From Meiothermus sp. (GTDB lineage: Bacteria; Deinococcota; Deinococci; Deinococcales; Thermaceae): a stretch of DNA of 64,000 nt. The notes under the pieces were generated by a model, which ran no database searches, was not told the DNA's origin, and saw nothing but the letters and a program-made list of their open reading frames with translations. Positions 16,700 through 32,145 of the stretch are shown one piece after another. Position numbers and translations under genes: made by a program. Each line of letters begins with the position of its first letter. The stretch's first letter is position 1. The stretch covers positions 1,550,001 to 1,614,000 of the forward strand of contig NZ_BPIM01000001.1 of NCBI RefSeq assembly GCF_026004115.1, in the 5' to 3' direction.

Positions 16700-18676
16700 A
16701 TGGAGAGCACCCTCAGCGCTATCGAGACCCAGGCCATCACCGCCGTTCGGATGCTGGCTGCCGACGCGGTGGAGCAGGCTAAAAGCGGCCATCCGGGCAT
16801 GCCCCTGGGCATGGCTCCGGCGGCTTATGTGCTCTGGACTGATTTTCTAAAACACAATCCGACGAACCCGCACTGGCCCGACCGTGACCGTTTCGTGCTC
16901 TCGGCGGGGCACGGCTCCATGCTCCTGTATGCGCTGCTGCATCTGACCGGCTACGACCTGCCCCTCGATGAACTCAAGCGCTTCCGACAGTGGGGTTCCA
17001 AAACCCCTGGCCACCCCGAGTACGGCCACACCCCGGGGGTAGAGGTAACCACCGGGCCGCTGGGTCAGGGCATCAGCACGGCGGTGGGGCTGGCGCTGGC
17101 TGAGCGTAAGCTGGCTGCCGAGTTCAACCGCGAGGGACACACCGTGGTGGATCACTACACCTATGTGCTGGCCTCAGACGGCGACCTGATGGAGGGGGTC
17201 TCGGGAGAGGCTAGCAGCCTGGCTGGGCACTGGGGGCTTTCCAAGCTGATTGTGCTCTGGGACGACAACCACATCTCCATTGACGGAAAAACCGAGCTTT
17301 CTTTTGCCGAGGACGTACTCGAGCGCTACCGGGCCTACGGCTGGCATACCCAACGGGTAGACGGAGAAGACCTGGTGGCATTGCGCCAGGCCCTCCGGGC
17401 TGCCCAGGTCGATGCCCGGCCCTCCATAATTGCTGTACGCACGGTGATTGGTGCAGGCTCGCCCAAGGCCGGGAGCCATAAGGTGCACGGCGAGCCTCTG
17501 GGCCCCGAGGCCCTCGAGGCCACCCGGCAGAACCTGCACTGGCCCCACCCCCCCTTCGAGATACCCCGCGAGGTCTACGAGCATTTCCGGGCTGCCGTGG
17601 CACGGGGACAGCGTCTCGAGGCCGACTGGAACATCCGCCTCGAGCGCTATGCCAGCGCCTACCCCGCCGAAGCCAGGGAGCTGGAGCGCCGCTTGAAAGG
17701 CGAACTGCCGCCCCTCGACTGGGAACAGCTCATCCCCAGCTTTAGCGGCAAGTTGGCCACCCGCGCCGCCTCGGGCAAAGTGCTCGATGCCCTGGCCCCT
17801 CGCCTGCCGGAGCTTTTGGGTGGCAGCGCCGACCTGACCCCTTCCAACAACACCCAGGCCCAGGGCATGCAGGCTTTCTCACGCGAGAACCCCACCGGCC
17901 GCTATGTGCATTACGGAGTTCGGGAGCACGGCATGGGGGCCATTCTCAACGGCCTCAACCTGCACGGGGGCTACCGGGCCTACGGAGGCACTTTCTTTGT
18001 TTTTTCCGACTACATGCGCCCAGCCATCCGACTGGCGGCCTTGATGGGTACGCCCACCGTCTTTGTGCTGACCCACGACTCCATCGCCATTGGCGAGGAC
18101 GGCCCTACCCACCAACCCATCGAGCACCTGGCCAGCCTGCGGGCTATGCCCAACCTCTTTGTGGTGCGGCCCGCGGATGCCCTCGAGACCGCCTACGCCT
18201 GGCGCCTGGCCCTGGAGCGCAAGCAAGGCCCCACCGCGCTGGTGCTCACCCGGCAGGCCCTGCCGGTACTGGAGCGGGGTAGCCTGGCCAGCGCAGAAGG
18301 CACTTTGCAGGGCGGCTATGTGCTCTCTGAGCGGCCTGATGCAAAAGCGGCCATCGTGGCTACCGGCAGCGAGGTGTCCCTGGCCCTGGAGGCCCAGAAG
18401 CAACTCGACGCCGAGCGAATTCCGGTACGGGTGGTGAGCCTACCTTGCTGGGAGGCCTTTGAGGCCCAGCCCGCAGCCTACCGCGAGGCCGTGCTGCCCA
18501 GGGGACTACCTACCCTGGCGGTAGAGGCTGGGGCCAGCCTAGGCTGGGAGCGCTACGCCGACGCCGTGCTGGGCCTCGATCACTTCGGGGCCAGCGCCCC
18601 CTACCCCGCTATCTACGAAAACCTGGGCTTCAGGCCCGGAGCCGTGGTGCGGGCGGTGCTGGAGCTTTTGCAGTAG
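16700..18676 (+). CDS. tkt: transketolase
   Basis: A 658-residue TPP enzyme that moves two-carbon units between sugar phosphates. Visible landmarks: [11 protein letters not shown] near residue 31, the TPP motif [14 protein letters not shown] to DDNHISIDG, and [15 protein letters not shown] plus [15 protein letters not shown] in the pyrimidine domain. The gene begins a plus-strand run with comB, cbbY, a Dabb gene and others, so here it most likely serves regeneration of ribulose bisphosphate in the Calvin cycle as well as the pentose phosphate pathway. AAAGGAGA precedes the ATG. Confidence 0.96.
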
Positions 18677-18705: not shown

Positions 18706-19407
18706 ATGAAGAAAGTTCGTGTTCACCCTTTGCCTTTAGAGGCCTTACCCCAGGCCGAGGTCATGCTGGTGGTGGATGTGATCCGGGCTACCAGCACGGC
18801 TGTGATGTTTTTGGAAGCCGGGGCCGAGGCCCTCTGGCTCACAGTGGGTCTGGAGCCGGCCCGCGCTCTCAAGCGCAATGGTGAACTGCTGGCCGGCGAG
18901 GTGGGGGGGCTGCGCCCGGAGGGCTTCGACTTTGGCAACAGCCCGCGCGAAGCCGCCCTGGCCGAACTCTCGGGCTGCACGGTCATTCACGCCACCACCA
19001 ACGGCACCAAGGCCGCCCACAAGGCGGCCCGGGTGGCCCGCGAGGTGCTACTGGCCTCGCTTTTGAATGCCCCTGCGGCTGCCCAATGGGCTTCCCGGCT
19101 GGGCACCGACGTGGCCATCCTCTGCGCGGGTAAGGAAGGCCAGGTGGGCATGGACGACCTCTACACCGCCGGGATGCTGGCCCAAAGCCTCCTTGCCGAG
19201 GGCTTTGAGCCGGAAGGCGACGGAGCCCAGATGGCCCTCCACCTGGCCCAGAAGCCCGCTCTGCCGTTGCTCAGGGCTTCCGAGGCGGCTTTGGCCTTGG
19301 AGCGCGAGGGGTTGGCTGCAGATGTAGATTTTTGTGCCCAGTTGGGCCTTTCCGAGCGGGTGCCCCGGCTACTGGAGCGGCGCGGCGAGGCGCTGGTCTT
19401 TGGCTAG
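18706..19407 (+). CDS. ComB-family (2-phosphosulfolactate phosphatase-like) enzyme
   Basis: A 233-residue protein with the ComB landmarks VVDVIRATSTAV near residue 22, ATTNGTKA near residue 103 and CAGKEGQVGMDD near residue 143. ComB is a magnesium-dependent acid phosphatase first known from coenzyme M synthesis, but many bacteria without coenzyme M carry homologues of unclear substrate. Between transketolase and CbbY, a role in removing an inhibitory sugar phosphate or a sulfonate-linked by-product is plausible. That is inference; no coenzyme M pathway gene is nearby. Confidence 0.85.
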   Translation: MKKVRVHPLPLEALPQAEVMLVVDVIRATSTAVMFLEAGAEALWLTVGLEPARALKRNGELLAGEVGGLRPEGFDFGNSPREAALAELSGCTVIHATTNGTKAAHKAARVAREVLLASLLNAPAAAQWASRLGTDVAILCAGKEGQVGMDDLYTAGMLAQSLLAEGFEPEGDGAQMALHLAQKPALPLLRASEAALALEREGLAADVDFCAQLGLSERVPRLLERRGEALVFG

Positions 19408-19479: not shown

Positions 19480-20229
19480 ATGCAGGCACTGATTTTTGAT
19501 GTAGATGGCGTTATAGCCGAGACAGAGGAGGGCCACCGGCTGGCTTTTAACCGGGCCTTTGCCGAGGCGGGACTGGACATTGAATGGAGCCCGGAGATGT
19601 ACGAGCGCCTCCTATGGGTAACCGGGGGCAAAGAGCGCATCGCTCACTACCTCTATCACTGCCCCGAGTGCCCCAAGCTCCTCGACGCGGACATTGCTCG
19701 GTTGCACAAGCGCAAGACCGAGCTGTACAACCAGATTGTGCAAGCAGGCGAGGTACCCTTCCGCCCCGGGGTGCTGAGACTCTGGCGCGAGGCCCGCGAG
19801 CGCGGGGTGCGGCTGGCCATTGCTACCACCACCTCGCTGCCCAACGTAGAGGTGCTGTTGCACCAGGCCGGGCCAGAGGTGCTGAGCTGGTTCGAGACCA
19901 TCGTGGCGGGGGATATGGTGCCCCAGAAGAAGCCCGCCCCCGATGTGTACCTCCAGGCCCTCCGGAACCTGGGCATCGCGCCGGAAGCAGCAGTGGCTGT
20001 AGAGGACTCCCAGAACGGTCTGATTGCGGCGCAGCGGGCCGGCATCCCCACCCTGATTACCCCCAGCTACTACACCCGTTCGCAGCGCTTCGAAGGGGCC
20101 CTGGCGGTACTGGAGCACCTGGGCGAGCCGGAGCTTCCCGCAAAGGTAGTGGAGGGGCCGCGCAGTTGTTCTATGGTGCTGACTCTCGAGGTCCTTCGGA
20201 ACTGGCACGGCATGTTTGTGGCGGCGTAG
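19480..20229 (+). CDS. cbbY: CbbY-like HAD phosphatase
   Basis: A 249-residue HAD-superfamily phosphatase. The nucleophile motif IFDVDGVIAETE is at residue 5, motif II TTTSLP near 113, the Lys in PQKKPAPDVYL and motif IV VEDSQNGL near 173. CbbY of red-type RuBisCO organisms removes the misfire product xylulose-1,5-bisphosphate, which blocks RuBisCO. The presence of form IC RuBisCO and CbbX in the same window makes that role likely. The C-terminal extension after residue 205 is slightly longer than usual. Confidence 0.88.
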   Translation: MQALIFDVDGVIAETEEGHRLAFNRAFAEAGLDIEWSPEMYERLLWVTGGKERIAHYLYHCPECPKLLDADIARLHKRKTELYNQIVQAGEVPFRPGVLRLWREARERGVRLAIATTTSLPNVEVLLHQAGPEVLSWFETIVAGDMVPQKKPAPDVYLQALRNLGIAPEAAVAVEDSQNGLIAAQRAGIPTLITPSYYTRSQRFEGALAVLEHLGEPELPAKVVEGPRSCSMVLTLEVLRNWHGMFVAA

Positions 20230-20231
20230 GT

Positions 20232-20534
20232 ATGGTGCGTCATCTGATTGTCTTCAACACTGAGGCCTCAGAAGCGGAAGTGTGGCAGATGTTCGAGCAG
20301 GCCCGCAGGGTATTGGGCCAGATTCCGGGGGTGGTGGGTTTTGAGCTGGGCAAGGCGTTGGGGGCGACCGCGCGCTACCGCTACGTACTGGTGGTGGATT
20401 TTGCCGATGAGAACGTAATTGATCTTTATCGCGATCACCCTTTGCATCAAGCTTTTGCCGATGGGATCTTCAGACCCATGGCCCCAGACCGCCTTACCAC
20501 CGATTTCCTAAGGCTCTACCCGGAGGCTTCGTGA
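20232..20534 (+). CDS. Dabb (stress-responsive dimeric alpha/beta barrel) protein
   Basis: A 100-residue protein with the Dabb pattern: an N-terminal strand MVRHLIVFN, a helix with QIPGVVGFELG, the strand YVLVVDFAD and HPLHQAFADGIF. Such small ferredoxin-like-fold proteins dimerise and often bind small molecules, sometimes as hydrolases or chaperones. The ATG lies three bases after the cbbY stop, and its own stop overlaps the next gene's GTG (GTGA). Substrate unknown; operon position suggests a support role in carbon fixation. Confidence 0.8.
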   Translation: MVRHLIVFNTEASEAEVWQMFEQARRVLGQIPGVVGFELGKALGATARYRYVLVVDFADENVIDLYRDHPLHQAFADGIFRPMAPDRLTTDFLRLYPEAS

Positions 20535-20818
20535 CGACAGAGGTGCTTCGCCGACTGCCTTACGCCGAGGCCGAACCCAAAGCCCGGCGGGTGTTGGTGG
20601 ACGGCTATGGTGAGGGGTTGGTGCTGGAAGGGATGGGGGGCTTCTACGGGCTTTACTACCTGTTTGGGCTACTGGGCCTGCGCGAACCCCAGCCCTCCTA
20701 CCCGCCCGACTGGGTGGAAGGCCCCCGGGCCAGCCTGGAAGACTTCTGGCCCCCTTACCAGATGGCCCACTGGCTCGAGCAAAACGGCTATAACCTTTTC
20801 ATCAACGAAAGCAAGTAG
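20531..20818 (+). CDS. small conserved-looking protein, paralogue A
   Basis: A 95-residue cytoplasmic protein starting at a GTG that overlaps the Dabb stop. I do not recognise its family. It shares with the next gene the blocks GYGEGLVLE, FYGLYYLFG, PDWVEGP, DFWPPYQMAHWLEQNGYN. These aromatic- and Gly-rich blocks suggest a small compact fold repeated twice in the operon. Placement between CbbY/Dabb and an aldolase points to a link with the Calvin cycle. Confidence 0.7.
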   Translation: MTTEVLRRLPYAEAEPKARRVLVDGYGEGLVLEGMGGFYGLYYLFGLLGLREPQPSYPPDWVEGPRASLEDFWPPYQMAHWLEQNGYNLFINESK

Positions 20819-20827
20819 GAGGTTGGA

Positions 20828-21112
20828 ATGCCCGGTGTTGCCCGTGAGTATGACGAGCTCGCCTACCGTGAGGCCCGTAGCCGGGCCGTGCGGCAGATGG
20901 TGGATGGTTTTGGCGAAGTCCTGGTGCTGCACGACGAGCACGGTTACTGGGGTCTTTACTACTTTTACTGGAGCCAAGAACCCCCGCCTGAGGCCAAGCC
21001 CCACTGGATGGAAGGCCCGCTCAAGGAGCCCGGCGACTTCCGCCCACCCTATATCGTCAAGACCTGGATGGAAGAAAACGGCTACGAGAGTTTTCAGAAT
21101 GACCTGGACTAG
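20828..21112 (+). CDS. small conserved-looking protein, paralogue B
   Basis: A 94-residue protein that aligns with the preceding gene over most of its length (GFGEVLVLH, YWGLYYFYW, PHWMEGP, DFRPPYIVKTWMEENGYE). It is more charged and lacks the extra hydrophobic segment that paralogue A has in its centre. AGGAGG lies 5 bp before the ATG. The pair probably arose by local duplication and may form a heteromer. Function unknown. Confidence 0.7.
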   Translation: MPGVAREYDELAYREARSRAVRQMVDGFGEVLVLHDEHGYWGLYYFYWSQEPPPEAKPHWMEGPLKEPGDFRPPYIVKTWMEENGYESFQNDLD

Positions 21113-21114
21113 CA

Positions 21115-21945
21115 ATGGTAGAACCCCGCCTCAACCGTTTGTTGGCCTCCGATGGCCGTTGCTTGGATGTGGCCGTTGATCACGGCATCTTTGGGGAGCT
21201 GGCTTTTCTGGCGGGCCTCGAGCGCTTAGCCCAGGCGGTGCAAACCCTGGTGGAAGCAGGCCCCGATGCCCTCCAGCTTGCCCCTGGGCAGGCCCACTGG
21301 CTTCAACGGATACCCGGCAAGCACAAGCCGGCCCTGGTGCTGCGGGCCGATACCACCAACGCCTACGGCCCGGTTCCGCCTCCGGTTGTTTTTGCTGAGC
21401 TGGCCGAGGGGGCTGTGGAGCAGGCCTTGCGGCTGGATGCGGCCTGTGTGGTGGTGAATTTGCTTTGGTTGCCGGGACAGGCAGAGCTATACCGGGATAG
21501 CCTCAAGAACGTGCAACGTCTGAAGGTAGAGGCCGAGCGCTACGGGATCCCCCTGATGGTGGAGCCTTTGGTCATGCAACCTGGAAAGGAGGGCTACGCG
21601 GTGGACGGGGATGTGCGCAAAATTATCTCCCTGGTGCGCCAGGCGGTGGAGCTGGGGGCCGATGTGATCAAAGCCGACTTCACACAGAATATTGAAGACT
21701 ACTACCGGGTGGTGGAGGCTGCCTCGAGCAAGCCGGTCTTGGTGCGGGGTGGGGGTAAAGTGGACGAGATCACCCTGTTAGAACGCAGCTACCAGGTCAT
21801 GCGTCAGGGGGCCAGGGGCCTGGTGTATGGGCGGAACATCCTGCAACACCGGAACCCCCGGGGCATGGTGCAGGCCCTCATGCAGATTGTGCATCAGGAT
21901 GCCACCCCCGAGGTAGCGCGGATCGCCCTGTCGGTTGAGGCATAA
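21115..21945 (+). CDS. class I (DhnA/LsrF-type) aldolase
   Basis: A 276-residue TIM-barrel enzyme of the archaeal-type class I fructose-bisphosphate aldolase/LsrF family. Landmarks are DVAVDHGIFG near the start, the Schiff-base Lys in GADVIKADF near residue 185, and the phosphate-binding segments VLVRGGGK and GLVYGRNI. It starts two bases after paralogue B. The likely role is aldol condensation or cleavage of sugar phosphates in the Calvin cycle or gluconeogenesis, parallel to the class II aldolase at 31222. Other aldol substrates are possible for this family. Confidence 0.8.
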   Translation: MVEPRLNRLLASDGRCLDVAVDHGIFGELAFLAGLERLAQAVQTLVEAGPDALQLAPGQAHWLQRIPGKHKPALVLRADTTNAYGPVPPPVVFAELAEGAVEQALRLDAACVVVNLLWLPGQAELYRDSLKNVQRLKVEAERYGIPLMVEPLVMQPGKEGYAVDGDVRKIISLVRQAVELGADVIKADFTQNIEDYYRVVEAASSKPVLVRGGGKVDEITLLERSYQVMRQGARGLVYGRNILQHRNPRGMVQALMQIVHQDATPEVARIALSVEA

Positions 21946-23404: not shown

Positions 23405-23896
23405 CTACTTTGAGCGGGTTTTTGAGGGGGCTTTCCTGTGGCTTTCTGGTGCCTGCTTTCGCAAGGGCAGGGTGAACGGCGGCCAGTCCATGCGGGCCGT
23501 GGTGTTATAGATAAACTCTCTGACAAAGGGCCACATGTTAATGGGCAGGTTGATTTCTTTGAACACCTCGAAGTAGCCAGCAAAGCCTTCGGATTCGGGT
23601 TGAAGTTTGCTCGAGTACCAAAAACCAAAACTAACCTCAATGCTACCCTGCTCTGCCTGACTATCCTGGTCTACTACAACCAACCTGAACTGGCCTACTG
23701 CCTCGAAACCATCCTCCTCTGGCCGGTAGCTATAACTCTCCTCGAGCCCCACTTGGCTACGGAGTGGGTTAGGGCTGGCTTCCAAGGCTTGTACGCTGGC
23801 CTCTATTAGTCGTACCCTCCGCAGCTCCAGGCCGTTCACAAAATGGTTGTACTGCTTTGGGGTAGGCAGTTTGGGTTTGCTAACCTTGGATGGCAT
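23405..23896 (-). CDS. SecB-like chaperone of a toxin-antitoxin-chaperone cassette
   Basis: A 163-residue protein. Its central part alternates strands, and the C-terminal part has the SecB signature layout, EINLPINMWPFVREFIYN followed by TTARMDWPPFTLPLRK, corresponding to the SecB segment PYARELIS..TARGGFPPL. It overlaps the 3' end of the HicB-like antitoxin gene by 17 bp. SecB-like chaperones joined to HigBA, HicAB and similar pairs protect the antitoxin from degradation (TAC systems). The strongly basic tail (SHRKAPSKTRSK) is unusual. Confidence 0.7.
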   Translation of the reverse strand: MPSKVSKPKLPTPKQYNHFVNGLELRRVRLIEASVQALEASPNPLRSQVGLEESYSYRPEEDGFEAVGQFRLVVVDQDSQAEQGSIEVSFGFWYSSKLQPESEGFAGYFEVFKEINLPINMWPFVREFIYNTTARMDWPPFTLPLRKQAPESHRKAPSKTRSK

Positions 23897-24410
23897 AGCC
23901 GTTCACTTCCACGCGCGAGTACTCCGTAAAAAACCCCGACTGCTGGCTTCGGTATTCAAAGCGGTAGGCCTCCCAGTCGTCCATGCGCCGTTGCAGGGCA
24001 AGCACGCATTCCTGTAAGCTTCTAAGCTCGTGTCGCACAGCACGCAGCGCACTGGCCTCAGAAAGCAAGCCCACAATGTGCTGATTCAGGCTCACCCCCT
24101 CGACCTCGGCCCCTTCAGCCAGACGGCGGTGCAGGCTGGGGGGCATCCGCACCAGTACCTTGCCGCCGTAGTTGCGCTCGGTGGAGGGCAGGGGAATTTC
24201 GTCGCCGTGCTCGTAGGCCACCTCGAGCCACAACTGACGGGCCTCCTCGATCATAGCCAGGGCTTCTTGTGCGGTCTCGCCCACTGAAACACAGCCCGGT
24301 AGATCGGGAATTAGAGCGGTGTAGCCTCCCTCGGCCTCTTTTACCAGGGTAATGGGATAGCGTAAGCCCAGGTAGTACTCCAAAGGCTTGCGCCCAACCT
24401 CCATTTTCAT
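23880..24410 (-). CDS. hicB: HicB-type antitoxin with C-terminal extension
   Basis: A 176-residue protein. The N-terminal partial RNase-H-like fold reads RYPITLVKEAEGGYTALIPD then LPGCVSVGETAQEALAMIEEA, typical for HicB. A ribbon-helix-helix segment follows (KVLVRMPPSLHRRLAEGAEVEG, residues about 92-130). Beyond it are some 50 extra residues rich in Arg and aromatics (YRFEYRSQQSGFFTEYSRVEV). In chaperone-dependent antitoxins this is where the chaperone-addiction segment lies. The start overlaps the hicA stop by four bases. Confidence 0.85.
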   Translation of the reverse strand: MKMEVGRKPLEYYLGLRYPITLVKEAEGGYTALIPDLPGCVSVGETAQEALAMIEEARQLWLEVAYEHGDEIPLPSTERNYGGKVLVRMPPSLHRRLAEGAEVEGVSLNQHIVGLLSEASALRAVRHELRSLQECVLALQRRMDDWEAYRFEYRSQQSGFFTEYSRVEVNGYAIQG

Positions 24411-24646
24411 TCTTCCTCCTCCCCTATGACCTTTAGAACTTGCTTGAGGTAAGTGGTTTTGACTACCTGACCACCGTGCTTGGGAACGGTCAGCTTCCGG
24501 CCATCCGGGTGCCGAAAGATATGGTGGCTACCGTTGGCGCGCTTCTCGATAAAGCCATACGCCCGCAGCACCCGTTCCACTTCCTCATAACGCATCTCAG
24601 GTGGCAGACGGCGCATCTTTTCGAGCAGTTTTTCTAGCTGGCCCAT
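24407..24646 (-). CDS. hicA: HicA-type mRNA interferase toxin
   Basis: A 79-residue protein with a double-stranded-RNA-binding-like fold. The catalytic His lies in GSHHIFRHPDGRKLTVP near residue 40, and the C-terminal VVKTTYLKQVLKVIG helix is typical. HicA cleaves mRNA in translation-independent fashion and is neutralised by HicB. The toxin-first gene order (hicA, hicB, chaperone) fits HicAB loci. A perfect palindrome lies just upstream. Confidence 0.88.
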   Translation of the reverse strand: MGQLEKLLEKMRRLPPEMRYEEVERVLRAYGFIEKRANGSHHIFRHPDGRKLTVPKHGGQVVKTTYLKQVLKVIGEEEE

Positions 24647-24768: not shown

Positions 24769-25662
24769 CTACGAAGCCAGCATCCCCCGCAGCGCTTCGG
24801 CAGCCGGGTTGCCCGCCTCCGTGGGGTAAAACAGCCAGAAAAGCCGCCTGAGTTCCATGCCCTTGATGCGCAAGGCCCGCAGGTTGCCCACCTTTACGTT
24901 GGGGCGTACCACCACGTTCGAGACGATGCCCACCCCGGCCCCCTCGAGCACCAGCCGCTTGGTGACCTCGTGGTTGTCGGTGTAAAAGACCGGGTTGACC
25001 TCGAGGCCGGCCTGTTCTAGGGCCGAGCCCAGCACCCGGAAGGTCATGGCTCCCGGTTCCCGCACAATCAGCGGAACCTCGGCCAGGTGTTCGGGGGTTA
25101 TTTCTTCCTTTCGAGCCCAGGGGTGCTCGGGCGGTACAATCACCACCAGCTCGTCTTCGTAAAAAAGCTGCCGCTCGAAGCCCTCGATATGCTCCACTGC
25201 CTCTACCACGGCCAGCTCAATTTCGCCCTGCATGAGCCGCTGGGTCAGCCGCTCGGAGCTGCCACTCTCTAGCTTAATGCGAATATCGGGATAGAGCCTT
25301 TTGAACTCGGTCAGGTAGCGGGGCAGCACATACACCGCCATGGTGGTCGAGGCACCAATCTCTACCCGCCCGCGCTCGAGGCGCTCCAAAGCCTGTGCGG
25401 CCTGCACAAACTCCTCCAGCGCCTGCACGGCCCGCCGGGCTTCGGGCAGCAAGTCCTGCCCGGTTTTGGTCAGCACCAGCCGGCGGCCCTGGCGGTGGAA
25501 GAGGGCCCGGCCAATCTGGGTTTCCAGGGCCCGCAGGTGCTGGCTCACACCCGGCTGGGTCATACCCAGGCTCAGGGCGGCCCGGCCCACACTGCCCTCC
25601 TGTACCACACACAAAAACACCCGCAAGGCCTGGGGGTTTGGAAAGGGGCGACGTTCAATCAT
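24769..25662 (-). CDS. cbbR: LysR-family regulator, CbbR-like
   Basis: A 297-residue LysR protein: N-terminal winged helix (ALRVFLCVVQEGSVGRAALSLGMTQPGVSQHL) and an effector domain from about residue 92 (VEIGASTTMAVYVLPRYLTEF). It reads away from glpX-cbbLSXP across an 85-bp AT-rich gap, which is the usual place of CbbR, the activator that senses NADPH or phosphorylated intermediates. The name rests on position and family; sequence alone does not separate CbbR from CysB-type relatives. Confidence 0.8.
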   Translation of the reverse strand: MIERRPFPNPQALRVFLCVVQEGSVGRAALSLGMTQPGVSQHLRALETQIGRALFHRQGRRLVLTKTGQDLLPEARRAVQALEEFVQAAQALERLERGRVEIGASTTMAVYVLPRYLTEFKRLYPDIRIKLESGSSERLTQRLMQGEIELAVVEAVEHIEGFERQLFYEDELVVIVPPEHPWARKEEITPEHLAEVPLIVREPGAMTFRVLGSALEQAGLEVNPVFYTDNHEVTKRLVLEGAGVGIVSNVVVRPNVKVGNLRALRIKGMELRRLFWLFYPTEAGNPAAEALRGMLAS

Positions 25663-25747
25663 AAGTATATATTATCAAAAAACTTAAATATAAACTTGCA
25701 CTATTTATCACAAGCTTCTACCCTGAAGCGTACCAGAGGAGGTGAGC
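25663..25747. promoter_or_regulatory. divergent cbbR/glpX control region
   Basis: An 85-bp AT-rich gap in GC-rich surroundings. It contains the inverted repeat TATATT-N13-AATATA with TTATCAAAAAAC inside, compatible with LysR sites (T-N11-A). A similar TTATCAAAAAA run precedes the transketolase operon. Confidence 0.55.
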
Positions 25748-28205
<2,458 letters not shown>

Positions 28206-28220
28206 TAAGGGAGGTTCTAA

Positions 28221-28643
28221 ATGCGTATCCACCAAGGTACTTTTTCTTTTCTGCCCGATCTGACCGATGAGCAAATCGAGAAACAAATTGCCTATATCAT
28301 CCGCAACGGTTGGGCAGTTGCAATCGAATACACGGATGATCCGAACCCCTACAACACCTATTGGAACATGTGGGGCTTGCCCATGTTCGACTTGGAAGAC
28401 CCCGCAGGGGCTATGTACGAGTTCAAAAAGTGTCGGGAGGCCTTCCCCAAGCACTATATCAAAGTTAATGGTTACGACTCATCGCCCATGTGGCAGGCCC
28501 AACGCGTGAGCTTTATAGCTCACCGGCCTACCTCAGAGGATCCCGGCTTCCGCTTGAACCGCCTGATCTGGTCGGATGGTCGTGTACAGAAATATGGCCT
28601 CGAGCCTTACGTGATCGATAAGCCAGAAGGCGAGCGGTATTGA
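28221..28643 (+). CDS. cbbS: RuBisCO small subunit, red type
   Basis: A 140-residue small subunit. Family features: MRIHQGTFSFLPDLTDEQI at the start, the NPYNTYWNMWGLPMFD block near residue 45, and a C-terminal extension (residues about 108-140) that red-type small subunits have and green-type lack; it forms the barrel in the central channel. Eight of these cap eight large subunits. It begins 15 bp after cbbL, with GGAGGT before the ATG. Confidence 0.96.
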   Translation: MRIHQGTFSFLPDLTDEQIEKQIAYIIRNGWAVAIEYTDDPNPYNTYWNMWGLPMFDLEDPAGAMYEFKKCREAFPKHYIKVNGYDSSPMWQAQRVSFIAHRPTSEDPGFRLNRLIWSDGRVQKYGLEPYVIDKPEGERY

Positions 28644-28652
28644 ACTTTTCTA

Positions 28653-28685
28653 GCCCGTCCTTTGGCCCCGGGCCAGGGACGGGTT
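28653..28685 (+). terminator. stem-loop between cbbS and cbbX
   Basis: A long GC-rich hairpin: CCCGTCC pairs with GGACGGG and, inside, GGCCC with GGGCC. Only a short T-rich stretch (TTCATTCT) follows. It could be a leaky terminator or an mRNA stabiliser that makes cbbLS transcript exceed cbbXP. Confidence 0.6.
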
Positions 28686-28704
28686 CATTCTAACGGGAGG
28701 CTCT

Positions 28705-29616
28705 ATGACCGATACTGTGAACACCGCCGACCTCAAGGCCTTGCTGCGACAGACCGGGGTACCCGAGGTGCTGGAGCGCCTGGAGCGGGAGTTGGTGGGG
28801 TTGATTCCGGTCAAGACCCGTATCCATGAAATAGCAGCTTACCTGGTGGTGGATAAGTTGCGCCGTGAGCTGGGATTGGAGGCGACCCGCCCGGTGTTGC
28901 ACATGGCTTTTACGGGCAATCCTGGTACTGGCAAAACCACCGTGGCCATGCGGATGGCCACCATCCTGCACCGGCTGGGCTACATCCGCCGCGATCACCT
29001 GGTGGTGGCCAGCCGCGACGACCTGGTCGGCCAGTACATCGGCCACACCGCCCCCAAAACCAAGGAGATCTTGAAGCGGGCCATGGGCGGCGTTTTGTTC
29101 ATCGACGAAGCTTACAGTCTCTATCGCGCCGAGAACGAAAGAGACTACGGTCAGGAGACCATTGAAATTCTACTGCAGGTAATGGAAAACCAGCGGGAGG
29201 ACTTGGTGGTGATCCTAGCCGGTTATGAAGACAAGATGGAGCAATTTTTTGCGCTCAACCCTGGAATGCGCTCGCGTATTGCTCACCATATTCGCTTTCC
29301 CGATTACACCGAAGAGGAGCTAGTGGCCATCGGCAAGCTGATGATTGCCGAGCAGAACTACTACCTGGATGAATTGGCAGAGCGAGCTTTCGTGGAGTAT
29401 GTGCGGTGTCGCAGGATGCTGCCCAACTTTGCCAATGCCAGGAGCATTCGCAATGCTATCGACCGCTTTAAGCTACGTCAGGCCAAACGACTCTTCGAGC
29501 AGGCGGGCCAGGTTACTGCGGACGACCTGCGTCGCATAGCTGTGGAAGACATACGGGCCAGCGAGGTTTTTCGCGAGTGTCAGGAGTTAGAGAAAGGAGG
29601 GGAGCATGCCCCATAG
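28705..29616 (+). CDS. cbbX: RuBisCO activase CbbX (AAA+)
   Basis: A 303-residue AAA+ ATPase that re-activates red-type RuBisCO by pulling on the large-subunit C-terminus. It shows Walker [10 protein letters not shown] near residue 72, pore loop [11 protein letters not shown], Walker [12 protein letters not shown], and the sensor region [16 protein letters not shown]. Its end overlaps the start of the phosphoribulokinase gene by 11 bp. Presence of CbbX and CbbY confirms the red-type system. Confidence 0.96.
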
Positions 29617-30574
29617 ACCTTTTATGCTGGGCATCGCAGGTGACTCGGGGGTGGGCAAGACCACCATCAGCAGCGGCATCGCCCGCTTGCTGGGGCAGGA
29701 GCGCACCACCAACATCTGCGTGGACGACTACCACAAATACGACCGCAAGCAGCGGGCCGAACTGAAAATCACCCCACTCAACCCCGAGTGCAACTACATG
29801 GACATCATGGAGCAGCACGTGCGGCTACTGTCATTAGGTGAGCCCGTCCTCAAACCTGTGTACAATCATGCTACAGGTACCTTTGATCCCCCCATTTACA
29901 TTCCACCCCCAAGGGCCATCAAAGATCATGCTCGACTGATTCCTCGAGCGGTCGTTTTGGAGGGCTTGTTGACCCTCTTTTCTGAGCCCATGCGCGAGCG
30001 CTACCACCTGAAGGTCTATTTAGACCCCGAGGAAGACCTGCGCCGGGAGTGGAAGGTCAAGCGCGATGTGGCCAAGCGGGGCTACACCCCCGAGCAGGTA
30101 GTGGCCGACATCGAGCGGCGGATGCCCGACTCCAAAGCCTTCATCTGGCCCCAGAAGGAGTATGCCGATATCGTCGTGCGTTTTTACCGGCCCGAGGGCT
30201 ACGACCCCGAGAAGCCCAGCACCCTCTCGGTGCGCATCACCCTCAAGCGCAGCCTGCCTAAGCTCGACCTGACCGAAGTGCTGCACTCGGCTTACGAAGA
30301 CGAACCCTCGGTGATAAGGCTCGAGGCCCGCAAAGAGGCCGATATCCTGGATATTTCCGGGGGTATGGAACCAGAGCGGGCAGCGGTCTTCGAGCGGCTT
30401 ATCTGGGAGCAGCTCGGCCAGCACGCCGAGCACTTTAACCCCGAACTTATCGGTACCTTCTGGGACAAAGGGGGGCAGAGCTACCCGCTGGCCCTGACCC
30501 AGCTCGTCATCGCGTATTATCTGGTACATATGCGCGAGCAGGCTATCCAAAAAGGAGCCCTGGCCTATGCCTAA
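29606..30574 (+). CDS. cbbP: phosphoribulokinase
   Basis: A 322-residue kinase that makes ribulose-1,5-bisphosphate from ribulose-5-phosphate. Walker [10 protein letters not shown] lies at residue 12, DDYHKYDR near 40 contains the catalytic Asp, and EGLLTLF near 118 the Walker B-type acid. Length and the [10 protein letters not shown] block fit the PRK form found in cyanobacteria and chloroflexi rather than the shorter proteobacterial form. The start overlaps cbbX, and the stop overlaps the epimerase gene by 8 bp. Confidence 0.95.
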
Positions 30575-31241
30575 ACTGCGGGTGGCCCCTTCCATCCTCA
30601 CCGCGGACTTTGCCCGTCTGGGTGAGCAAATCCAGGAGGCCGAGGCGGCAGGGGTGGACTGGATTCACCTCGATGTGATGGACGGGCGCTTTGTGCCCAA
30701 TCTGACCTTTGGCCCGCTGGTGGTGGAAGCCATCCGCAAGGTCACCGGGCTGCCCCTGGATGTGCACCTGATGATTGTGGAGCCCGAGCGCTACCTGAAG
30801 GACTTTGCCCAGGCCGGTGCGGACTGGATTACCGTGCATGCCGAGGCCACGCCCCACGCCCACCGGGCGGTGCAGCAAATCAAAGAACTAGGCAAGAAGG
30901 CCGGACTGGCCCTCAACCCGGCCACGCCGCTGGAGGCCATGCTGCCCTTGCTGCCCGAACTCGACCTGGCCCTCCTGATGAGCGTGAACCCCGGCTTCGG
31001 CGGGCAAAAGTACATCCCCGCCAGCACCGAGCGCATCCAGCGCCTGCGCGGCCTGCGCGATCACCTGAACCCTGGTTGCCTGATCCAGGTCGATGGGGGC
31101 ATCAAGCCCGAGAACGTGGCCACGGTCTATCGGGCCGGGGCCGATGTGGTGGTGGTAGGGAGCGCTTTGTTCAACAAGCGGCCGGTGGCCGAAAATATGG
31201 AGAAACTGCTAGGAGAAGTGTATGCCGTTGGTCCTAGGTAA
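30567..31241 (+). CDS. rpe: ribulose-phosphate 3-epimerase
   Basis: A 224-residue TIM barrel that interconverts xylulose- and ribulose-5-phosphate. Landmarks: [14 protein letters not shown] at the start, [17 protein letters not shown] near 35 with His/Asp metal ligands, LDVHLMI near 70, [10 protein letters not shown] near 140 and VDGGI near 175. The gene is overlapped on both sides (cbbP by 8 bp, aldolase by 20 bp), a tight translational chain. It supplies the substrate for phosphoribulokinase. Confidence 0.95.
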
Positions 31242-32145
31242 AGACGTCCTCGATAAGGCGCGGCGTGAAGGCTATGCTGTGCCCAGCTTCAACACCAACA
31301 ACTTAGAGACTACCCAGGCCATCCTCGAGACCGCCGAAGCCCTCAGGGCCCCGGTCTTCATTCAGGTTTCCGACGGTGCCCGCAAGTATGCGGGGCTGGA
31401 AAACCTCTCCAACCTGGTGCGCGACATGGCCAGCCGGGTGAGCGTGCCGGTGGCGCTGCACCTTGACCACGGGGCCGACTACAAGATGGTGCTTCAGGCG
31501 CTGCGGGCTGGCTTCACCAGCGTGATGATTGACGCCTCGCACCACCCCTTTGAGGAGAACGTACACGAGACTAAAAAGTGCGTGGAGGCCGCCCATGCGG
31601 TGGGGGTAAGCGTAGAGGCCGAGCTCGGCCGCTTGCAGGGTATCGAGGATAACATCGTGGTGGAGGCCAAAGATGCTTTCCTCACCGACCCTGAGGAGGC
31701 CGTGCGCTTTGTGGAGGCCACCGGCATCGACTACCTGGCCATTGCCATCGGCACTTCGCACGGGGCCTACAAGGGCAAGGGGCGGCCCTACATCGACCAT
31801 GTCCGGCTCGAGCAGATTGCCGCCCGGGTCTCCATTCCCCTGGTGCTGCACGGCTCTTCTGGTGTGCCGCAGTGGCTCAAGGACAAAATGCGCGCCACCG
31901 GGGCCGACCTCGGCGACCCCACCGGCATCCACGACGAAGACGTGCGCAAGGCCATTCCCAACGGCATCGCTAAAATCAACATCGATACCGACCTGCGCCT
32001 GGCTTTTACCGCTGGTATCCGCGAGGTGGTGGTGGGTAACGCCAAGGAGTTCGACCCGCGCAAACTGCTGGGCAAGGGCCGCGAGTACCTGAAGCAGGTC
32101 ATTAAGGAAAAGTTCGAACTGATGGGCACGGTGGGGCGGGCCTAG
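31222..32145 (+). CDS. fba: class II fructose-bisphosphate aldolase
   Basis: A 307-residue zinc-dependent aldolase. Metal and substrate residues can be seen: HLDHGAD (catalytic Asp and zinc His) near residue 80, [10 protein letters not shown] near 130, GTSHGAYKG near 177, LHGSSGVP near 208 and [12 protein letters not shown] near 250. It is the last gene of the glpX-cbbLSXP-rpe operon and makes fructose and sedoheptulose bisphosphates in the cycle. A repeat copy follows 65 bp later. Confidence 0.95.

Follow-up and report, generated by a model that had tools for sequence, protein, structure and literature searches.

RbcX and Raf1 are small accessory proteins that occur only in organisms with RuBisCO, and the same holds for p95 and p94, two small proteins encoded in tandem in a 64,000-nucleotide stretch of DNA from Meiothermus sp. 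(hereafter the window). However, p95 and p94 show no sequence match to RbcX or Raf1, contain a β-sheet, are restricted to one lineage, do not appear to track CbbL and are encoded beside a RuBisCO of the red type, a type whose hosts have neither RbcX nor Raf1 (PMC9833100). When 36 family members were compared with Pfam and NCBIfam, and in profile searches of the PDB, no homology to the RuBisCO assembly chaperones RbcX, Raf1, Raf2 or BSD2 was detected. The activases CbbX, CbbQO and Rca are members of cbb regulons, as are p95/p94, but activases are AAA+ ATPases whereas p95/p94 comprise only 94-95 amino acids without an AAA+ match, and the window already has its own cbbX (Table 1). CP12 proteins resemble p95/p94 in being small, acidic, dedicated to the Calvin (CBB) cycle and flexible at their ends; in contrast, p95/p94 have neither the cysteine pairs nor a CP12 family match, and a folded β-sheet domain is predicted for them. 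CbbY has the same operon and presence pattern as p95/p94, but it is a HAD enzyme to which p95/p94 show no sequence similarity.

Autotrophic growth in the Thermaceae was first shown in 2026, according to the main text of PMC13019369, which describes a cbb cluster of seven genes (glpX to fba) together with transketolase; the genes between transketolase and cbbR are not discussed where that main text deals with the cluster. Autotrophy or CBB genes in Thermaceae are the subject of PMC13019369 and PMC5015936, and the passages of both articles on these topics contain no discussion of p95/p94.

The p95/p94 pair and its operon

Two open reading frames of 95 and 94 residues sharing ordered sequence blocks had been reported in the initial annotation, and both are present: p95 and p94 are 46% identical (39/85 residues, 72 bits, E = 4e-23, BLASTP) and the blocks appear in the same order in their alignment. 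All p95 and p94 sequences fall into two reciprocally monophyletic clades (support 100/100), and the duplication is therefore older than the split between Meiothermus and Thermus. Values of dN/dS between species (0.05-0.23) indicate purifying selection on both genes, and the encoded proteins are acidic, with a pI of 4.3-5.3. Neither p95 without p94 nor p94 without p95 was found among 50 Thermaceae genomes.

In the window, tkt is followed by a comB-like gene, cbbY, dabb, p95, p94, a DeoC/LacD aldolase gene, DUF3422, hicBA-like genes, a LysR-type regulator gene on the reverse strand and then the genes from glpX to fba (Table 1). Translational coupling in one operon with transketolase, as proposed earlier, is borne out by the coordinates: cbbY and dabb overlap by 4 nt, as do dabb and p95 (GTGA), the gap of 9 nt between p95 and p94 contains AGGAGG, and only 2 nt separate p94 from the aldolase gene; upstream, the intergenic gaps of tkt-comB-cbbY amount to 29 and 72 bp. 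The assignment to a Calvin-cycle operon stood insofar as this gene order places p95/p94 inside the transketolase operon, but the RuBisCO genes belong to a second, separate operon, which begins 4.6 kb downstream, past DUF3422, hicBA and the reverse-strand cbbR.

Table 1. Positions of the features discussed, in coordinates of the window.
Feature	Position	Strand	Remarks
CbbR-type box ATAAA-N6-TTATCAAAA	16602..16621	+	upstream of tkt; one of two exact genome-wide matches
tkt, transketolase	16700..18676	+	TIGR00232, E 6e-269; first gene of operon
comB-like, 2-phosphosulfolactate phosphatase family	18706..19407	+	PF04029, E 5e-59
cbbY, HAD enzyme of xylulose-1,5-bisphosphate phosphatase type	19480..20229	+	closest solved relative CbbY 4uar, E 1.6e-60
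dabb, Dabb-domain protein	20226..20534	+	PF07876, E 2.4e-13
p95	20531..20818	+	95 aa, GTG start; conserved tail NESK; own clade 100/100
p94	20828..21112	+	94 aa, ATG start; conserved tail ND[LV]D
DeoC/LacD-family aldolase	21115..21945	+	PF01791, E 1e-32
HicB/HicA-like gene pair	23880..24646	-	between DUF3422 and cbbR
LysR-type regulator, CbbR by position	24769..25662	-	divergent from adjacent glpX-cbbL in fetched CBB Thermaceae loci
CbbR-type box ATAAG-N6-TTATCAAAA	25661..25680	+	upstream of glpX-cbbLSX; the other exact genome-wide match
RuBisCO operon glpX, cbbL, cbbS (red type), cbbX, prk, rpe, fba	25742..32145	+	
RuBisCO subunit genes	26751..28643	+	
cbbX	28705..29616	+	

Given its closest solved relative, the HAD protein of the window is, as judged from sequence, a true CbbY. 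The RuBisCO small subunit is of the red type, with 1bxn as best match over its full length. The ComB-family protein of the CBB operon scores under the NCBIfam equivalog cut-off, and its substrate may be another phosphate ester. By inspection, the two genes between DUF3422 and cbbR resemble a HicB/HicA toxin-antitoxin pair; similar genes are found in genome G003, G005 has a hicB-like match, and they are absent from most relatives.

The constant neighbour of p95/p94 is cbbY, which adjoins them in the fetched loci, and in G006, G009, G013 and G014 it is still beside the pair when cbbLS is located on another contig. The dabb gene is absent in G002 and G008, and the DeoC/LacD aldolase is not conserved across all CBB-bearing Thermaceae. 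In Thermus (L074-L079, L099-L106), an extra gene resembling class II fructose-bisphosphate aldolases (37-42% to cbb fba) lies between comB and cbbY; in most Meiothermus the DeoC/LacD aldolase gene past p94 takes its place. Allomeiothermus silvanus carries the pair on a 348-kb plasmid record (NC_014213.1, about 56.1-56.7 kb), where p94 is annotated as a hypothetical protein. Among Meiothermus lineages the RuBisCO subunit genes were swapped within an operon that is otherwise conserved (L062, L064, L066, L067, L069/L080, L065/L082, L070/L081); between G002 and the genome of the window, cbbL is 87% identical, compared with 96-99% for prk, rpe, fba and glpX on its flanks.

Distribution of p95/p94 and their dedication to the Calvin cycle

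Scanning 84,980 species with a pattern search, which required one of two conserved motifs and could therefore miss very distant relatives, returned 11 relatives, exclusively from Meiothermus or Thermus. Profile searches of 111 members of the phylum located the pair in 27 genomes, all of them Thermaceae. When 50 Thermaceae genomes were compared, both genes were present wherever CBB genes occurred (26/26), and among the 24 genomes without CBB genes neither gene was present in 23, the remaining one (G003) containing broken remnants. Form I cbbL was detected in 25 of the 50 genomes, and the pair in these 25 as well as in G003 and G015. The latter was considered as a case of the pair without RuBisCO and rejected: one of its contigs opens within cbbS, with cbbX, prk, rpe and fba behind it, so that G015 is no exception to the co-occurrence of pair and CBB genes. 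Weaker RuBisCO-like matches (E about 1e-17 to 1e-26) showed a distribution unlike that of the pair. Neither pattern scan nor profile searches turned up a homologue in any genome without a history of CBB genes. The profile and neighbourhood check suggested in the initial annotation yielded relatives in Thermaceae only, accompanied by cbb genes everywhere in the fetched loci, which is the opposite of homologues being widespread without RuBisCO and away from cbb genes. In this family, p95/p94 are dedicated to the Calvin cycle.

On an rpoB tree the CBB trait switches at least 11 times, and independent contrasts on supported branches agreed with joint presence or absence in 9 out of 9 cases (sign test, p = 0.004); with the broken genes of G003 scored as present, 8 contrasts agreed and 1 was neutral (p = 0.008). 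In G003 (L063), cbbL and prk are missing, p95 and p94 are frame-broken, comB is broken, tkt is cut down to a short remnant and cbbY is still open. As G003 is a metagenome-assembled genome of about 4x coverage, single frameshifts could be errors; the loss of tkt is harder to explain in this way. In the Thermus genome G069 (L097), which has a truncated prk and no RuBisCO, everything from comB through cbbX is gone and tkt abuts the prk remnant.

The pair and RuBisCO also have a control site in common. Exactly two perfect copies of ATAAR-N6-TTATCAAAA are present in the 3.35 Mb of the genome to which the window belongs, at the tkt and glpX promoters, along with one more site containing a mismatch, and the shuffled window contained no copy; this genome-wide count is partly circular because the pattern was derived from the same two sites. 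Independent support comes from conservation, since in most Meiothermus relatives, some of which have the operons apart, both promoters carry the box. A Thermus variant, ATRAG-N6-CTTATRGTA, occurs at the two promoters of G025, G064 and G072, where the looser pattern gave three genome-wide matches each; in other Thermus the tkt-side copy is more degenerate, and a box could not be located in the stretch of G003. With a CbbR-type box at its operon promoter in common with cbbLS, the pair can be counted among the CbbR regulon, and the neighbouring LysR-type regulator suggests that CbbR would bind both boxes.

According to the part of PMC13019369 concerned with CBB genes, the CBB cluster is laterally mobile in Thermaceae, and any hitch-hiker would then co-occur with it. 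That p95/p94 are such a passenger pair without a role in the cycle is nevertheless highly improbable, as both copies are under purifying selection in 26/26 genomes, also where the operons are separated, as they have decayed in G003, which lacks cbbL and prk, and as they sit in a coupled operon with a CbbR-type box. The functional tie to the Calvin cycle that had been suggested at the outset is strongly supported by presence, loss, operon and control site; co-presence with RuBisCO, loss or decay without it, and a control site shared with the RuBisCO genes indicate that p95/p94 are dedicated helpers of CO2 fixation.

RuBisCO subunits versus operon neighbours

Evolutionary distances of p95/p94 tracked those of tkt, comB, cbbY and dabb, at a partial r of 0.42-0.88, whereas partial correlations with cbbL were 0.11-0.16; in Meiothermus, where cbbL and cbbS covary (partial r 0.86), the values were 0.12 for cbbL and about 0 for cbbS. 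Linkage accounts for part of the correlation with the neighbours, so that these values weaken a role specific for the RuBisCO subunits and leave another partner unproven. In the CbbLS tree, the genome of the window groups with G005, G006 and G014, and a grouping with its rpoB sister G002 was rejected (AU p = 2e-6). The tkt+cbbY tree rejects the CbbLS grouping (AU p = 1e-4), and p95+p94 alone gave an AU p of 0.06 against the CbbL grouping, which falls short of a significant rejection. G006 and G013 have p95/p94 that are 96% identical and CbbLS of different lineages. When CbbLS was exchanged among Meiothermus, p95/p94 apparently did not move along.

An earlier proposal that p95/p94 act as RuBisCO accessory factors or assembly chaperones was not sustained as a specific role, given that CbbL/CbbS were apparently exchanged without p95/p94, that similarity to known RuBisCO factors is lacking in the searches described above and that E. 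coli can assemble form IC RuBisCO with no additional chaperones (PMC9833100). The main rival to the explanation preferred below is a broader version of this proposal, in which p95/p94 would serve RuBisCO and CbbX by folding, assembling, stabilising at 60-70°C or reactivating the red-type enzyme via surfaces unchanged between lineages. The strict pairing of p95/p94 with form I cbbL, in presence and in loss, the CbbR-type box common to both operons and a correlation of distances with cbbX (partial r 0.49-0.71) are in agreement with such a helper, and thermophily makes a lineage-specific stabiliser plausible. However, cbbX also tracks cbbY, so that its signal is unspecific, and nearly identical pairs accompany different CbbLS lineages in G006 and G013. 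As the pair is, in addition, linked to cbbY-tkt rather than to cbbLS and form IC assembly does not call for further chaperones, we consider a RuBisCO-CbbX helper somewhat unlikely.

Predicted fold and proposed role

No match to Pfam or NCBIfam was obtained for the 36 family members, a PHROGs scan gave nothing significant, a viral collection contained no relatives of the pair, and Foldseek comparisons with PDB and BFVD gave no match at E <= 0.001. The best hit of the PDB profile search (E = 0.98; reverse transcriptases, 32 residues) was dismissed as chance. Weak PDB fold matches to IRAK4, Knl1, PURA and MRP1/2 (TM-scores of about 0.3 or less) and BFVD matches to unnamed phage proteins that remained below significance were set aside. 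Descent from Dabb or CbbS was likewise rejected (hhalign probability of 0.3% for each).

An AlphaFold2 model of p94 based on 36 sequences shows a confident small fold (pLDDT 86, pTM 0.77) in which two short helices, one four-stranded sheet and a further helix are followed by a disordered yet conserved C-terminal tail. When p95 and p94 were predicted as a fusion (p95-TAG=Q-p94), both halves adopted the same fold; with a pTM of 0.51 and no confident interface, no p95-p94 interface is claimed. The residues invariant in the family are A, D, G, L, Y, P, E and N only, the invariant polar ones being D26, Y44, E85 and N94 (columns of alignment A2). That no His, Cys, Lys or Ser is conserved family-wide speaks against an enzyme, and the invariant residues together with the acidity seem to favour protein binding over catalysis.

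These properties bear on two further explanations. Since the constant neighbour CbbY is a xylulose-bisphosphate phosphatase, p95/p94 might be a metabolite-repair part, for example a small enzyme or lyase-like domain that acts on a sugar-phosphate by-product and passes it on to CbbY. The cbbY neighbour in fetched loci and the Dabb, HAD and aldolase genes around the pair would fit, but with only four invariant polar residues and no His, Cys, Lys or Ser among them, this is very unlikely. Alternatively, a small, acidic pair with conserved flexible tails and a strict CBB link could act like CP12 and, depending on the metabolic state of the cell, reversibly bind and gate PRK, GAPDH or transketolase; the lack of conserved cysteines and of a CP12 match, and a folded sheet domain unlike the disordered CP12, make such a regulator quite improbable.

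As a tentative best explanation, which we regard as possible as a whole, p95/p94 are small acidic proteins of one family, duplicated long ago and obligately paired, that serve only the Calvin cycle of Thermaceae. For partner and mechanism, we infer a non-catalytic, probably hetero-oligomeric protein-binding pair that serves the CbbY/transketolase arm and not the large and small subunits of RuBisCO. p95 and p94 could be joined as a hetero-oligomer through the four-stranded sheet, and the two different disordered conserved tails, NESK and NDLD, would be displayed as docking peptides. The pair would bind or support an enzyme of the CbbY/transketolase arm, that is, of sugar-phosphate housekeeping, or would tether such enzymes together. 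The persistence of cbbY beside the pair even with cbbLS elsewhere speaks for this arm; against it, the correlation with tkt, comB, cbbY and dabb can come from linkage alone. A more far-reaching version, which we consider unlikely, would be a heteromeric scaffold or thermoprotective clamp, specific to Thermaceae, by which CbbY/TKT and perhaps also RuBisCO-CbbX are organised at 60-70°C; it would be a kind of CBB organiser not known before and without a relative in other autotrophs.

As a strictly CBB-linked, co-regulated and always paired family without known relatives, p95/p94 are a concrete, deletable candidate for the high-temperature requirements of a red-type Calvin cycle, and also a candidate for the engineering of heat-stable carbon fixation.
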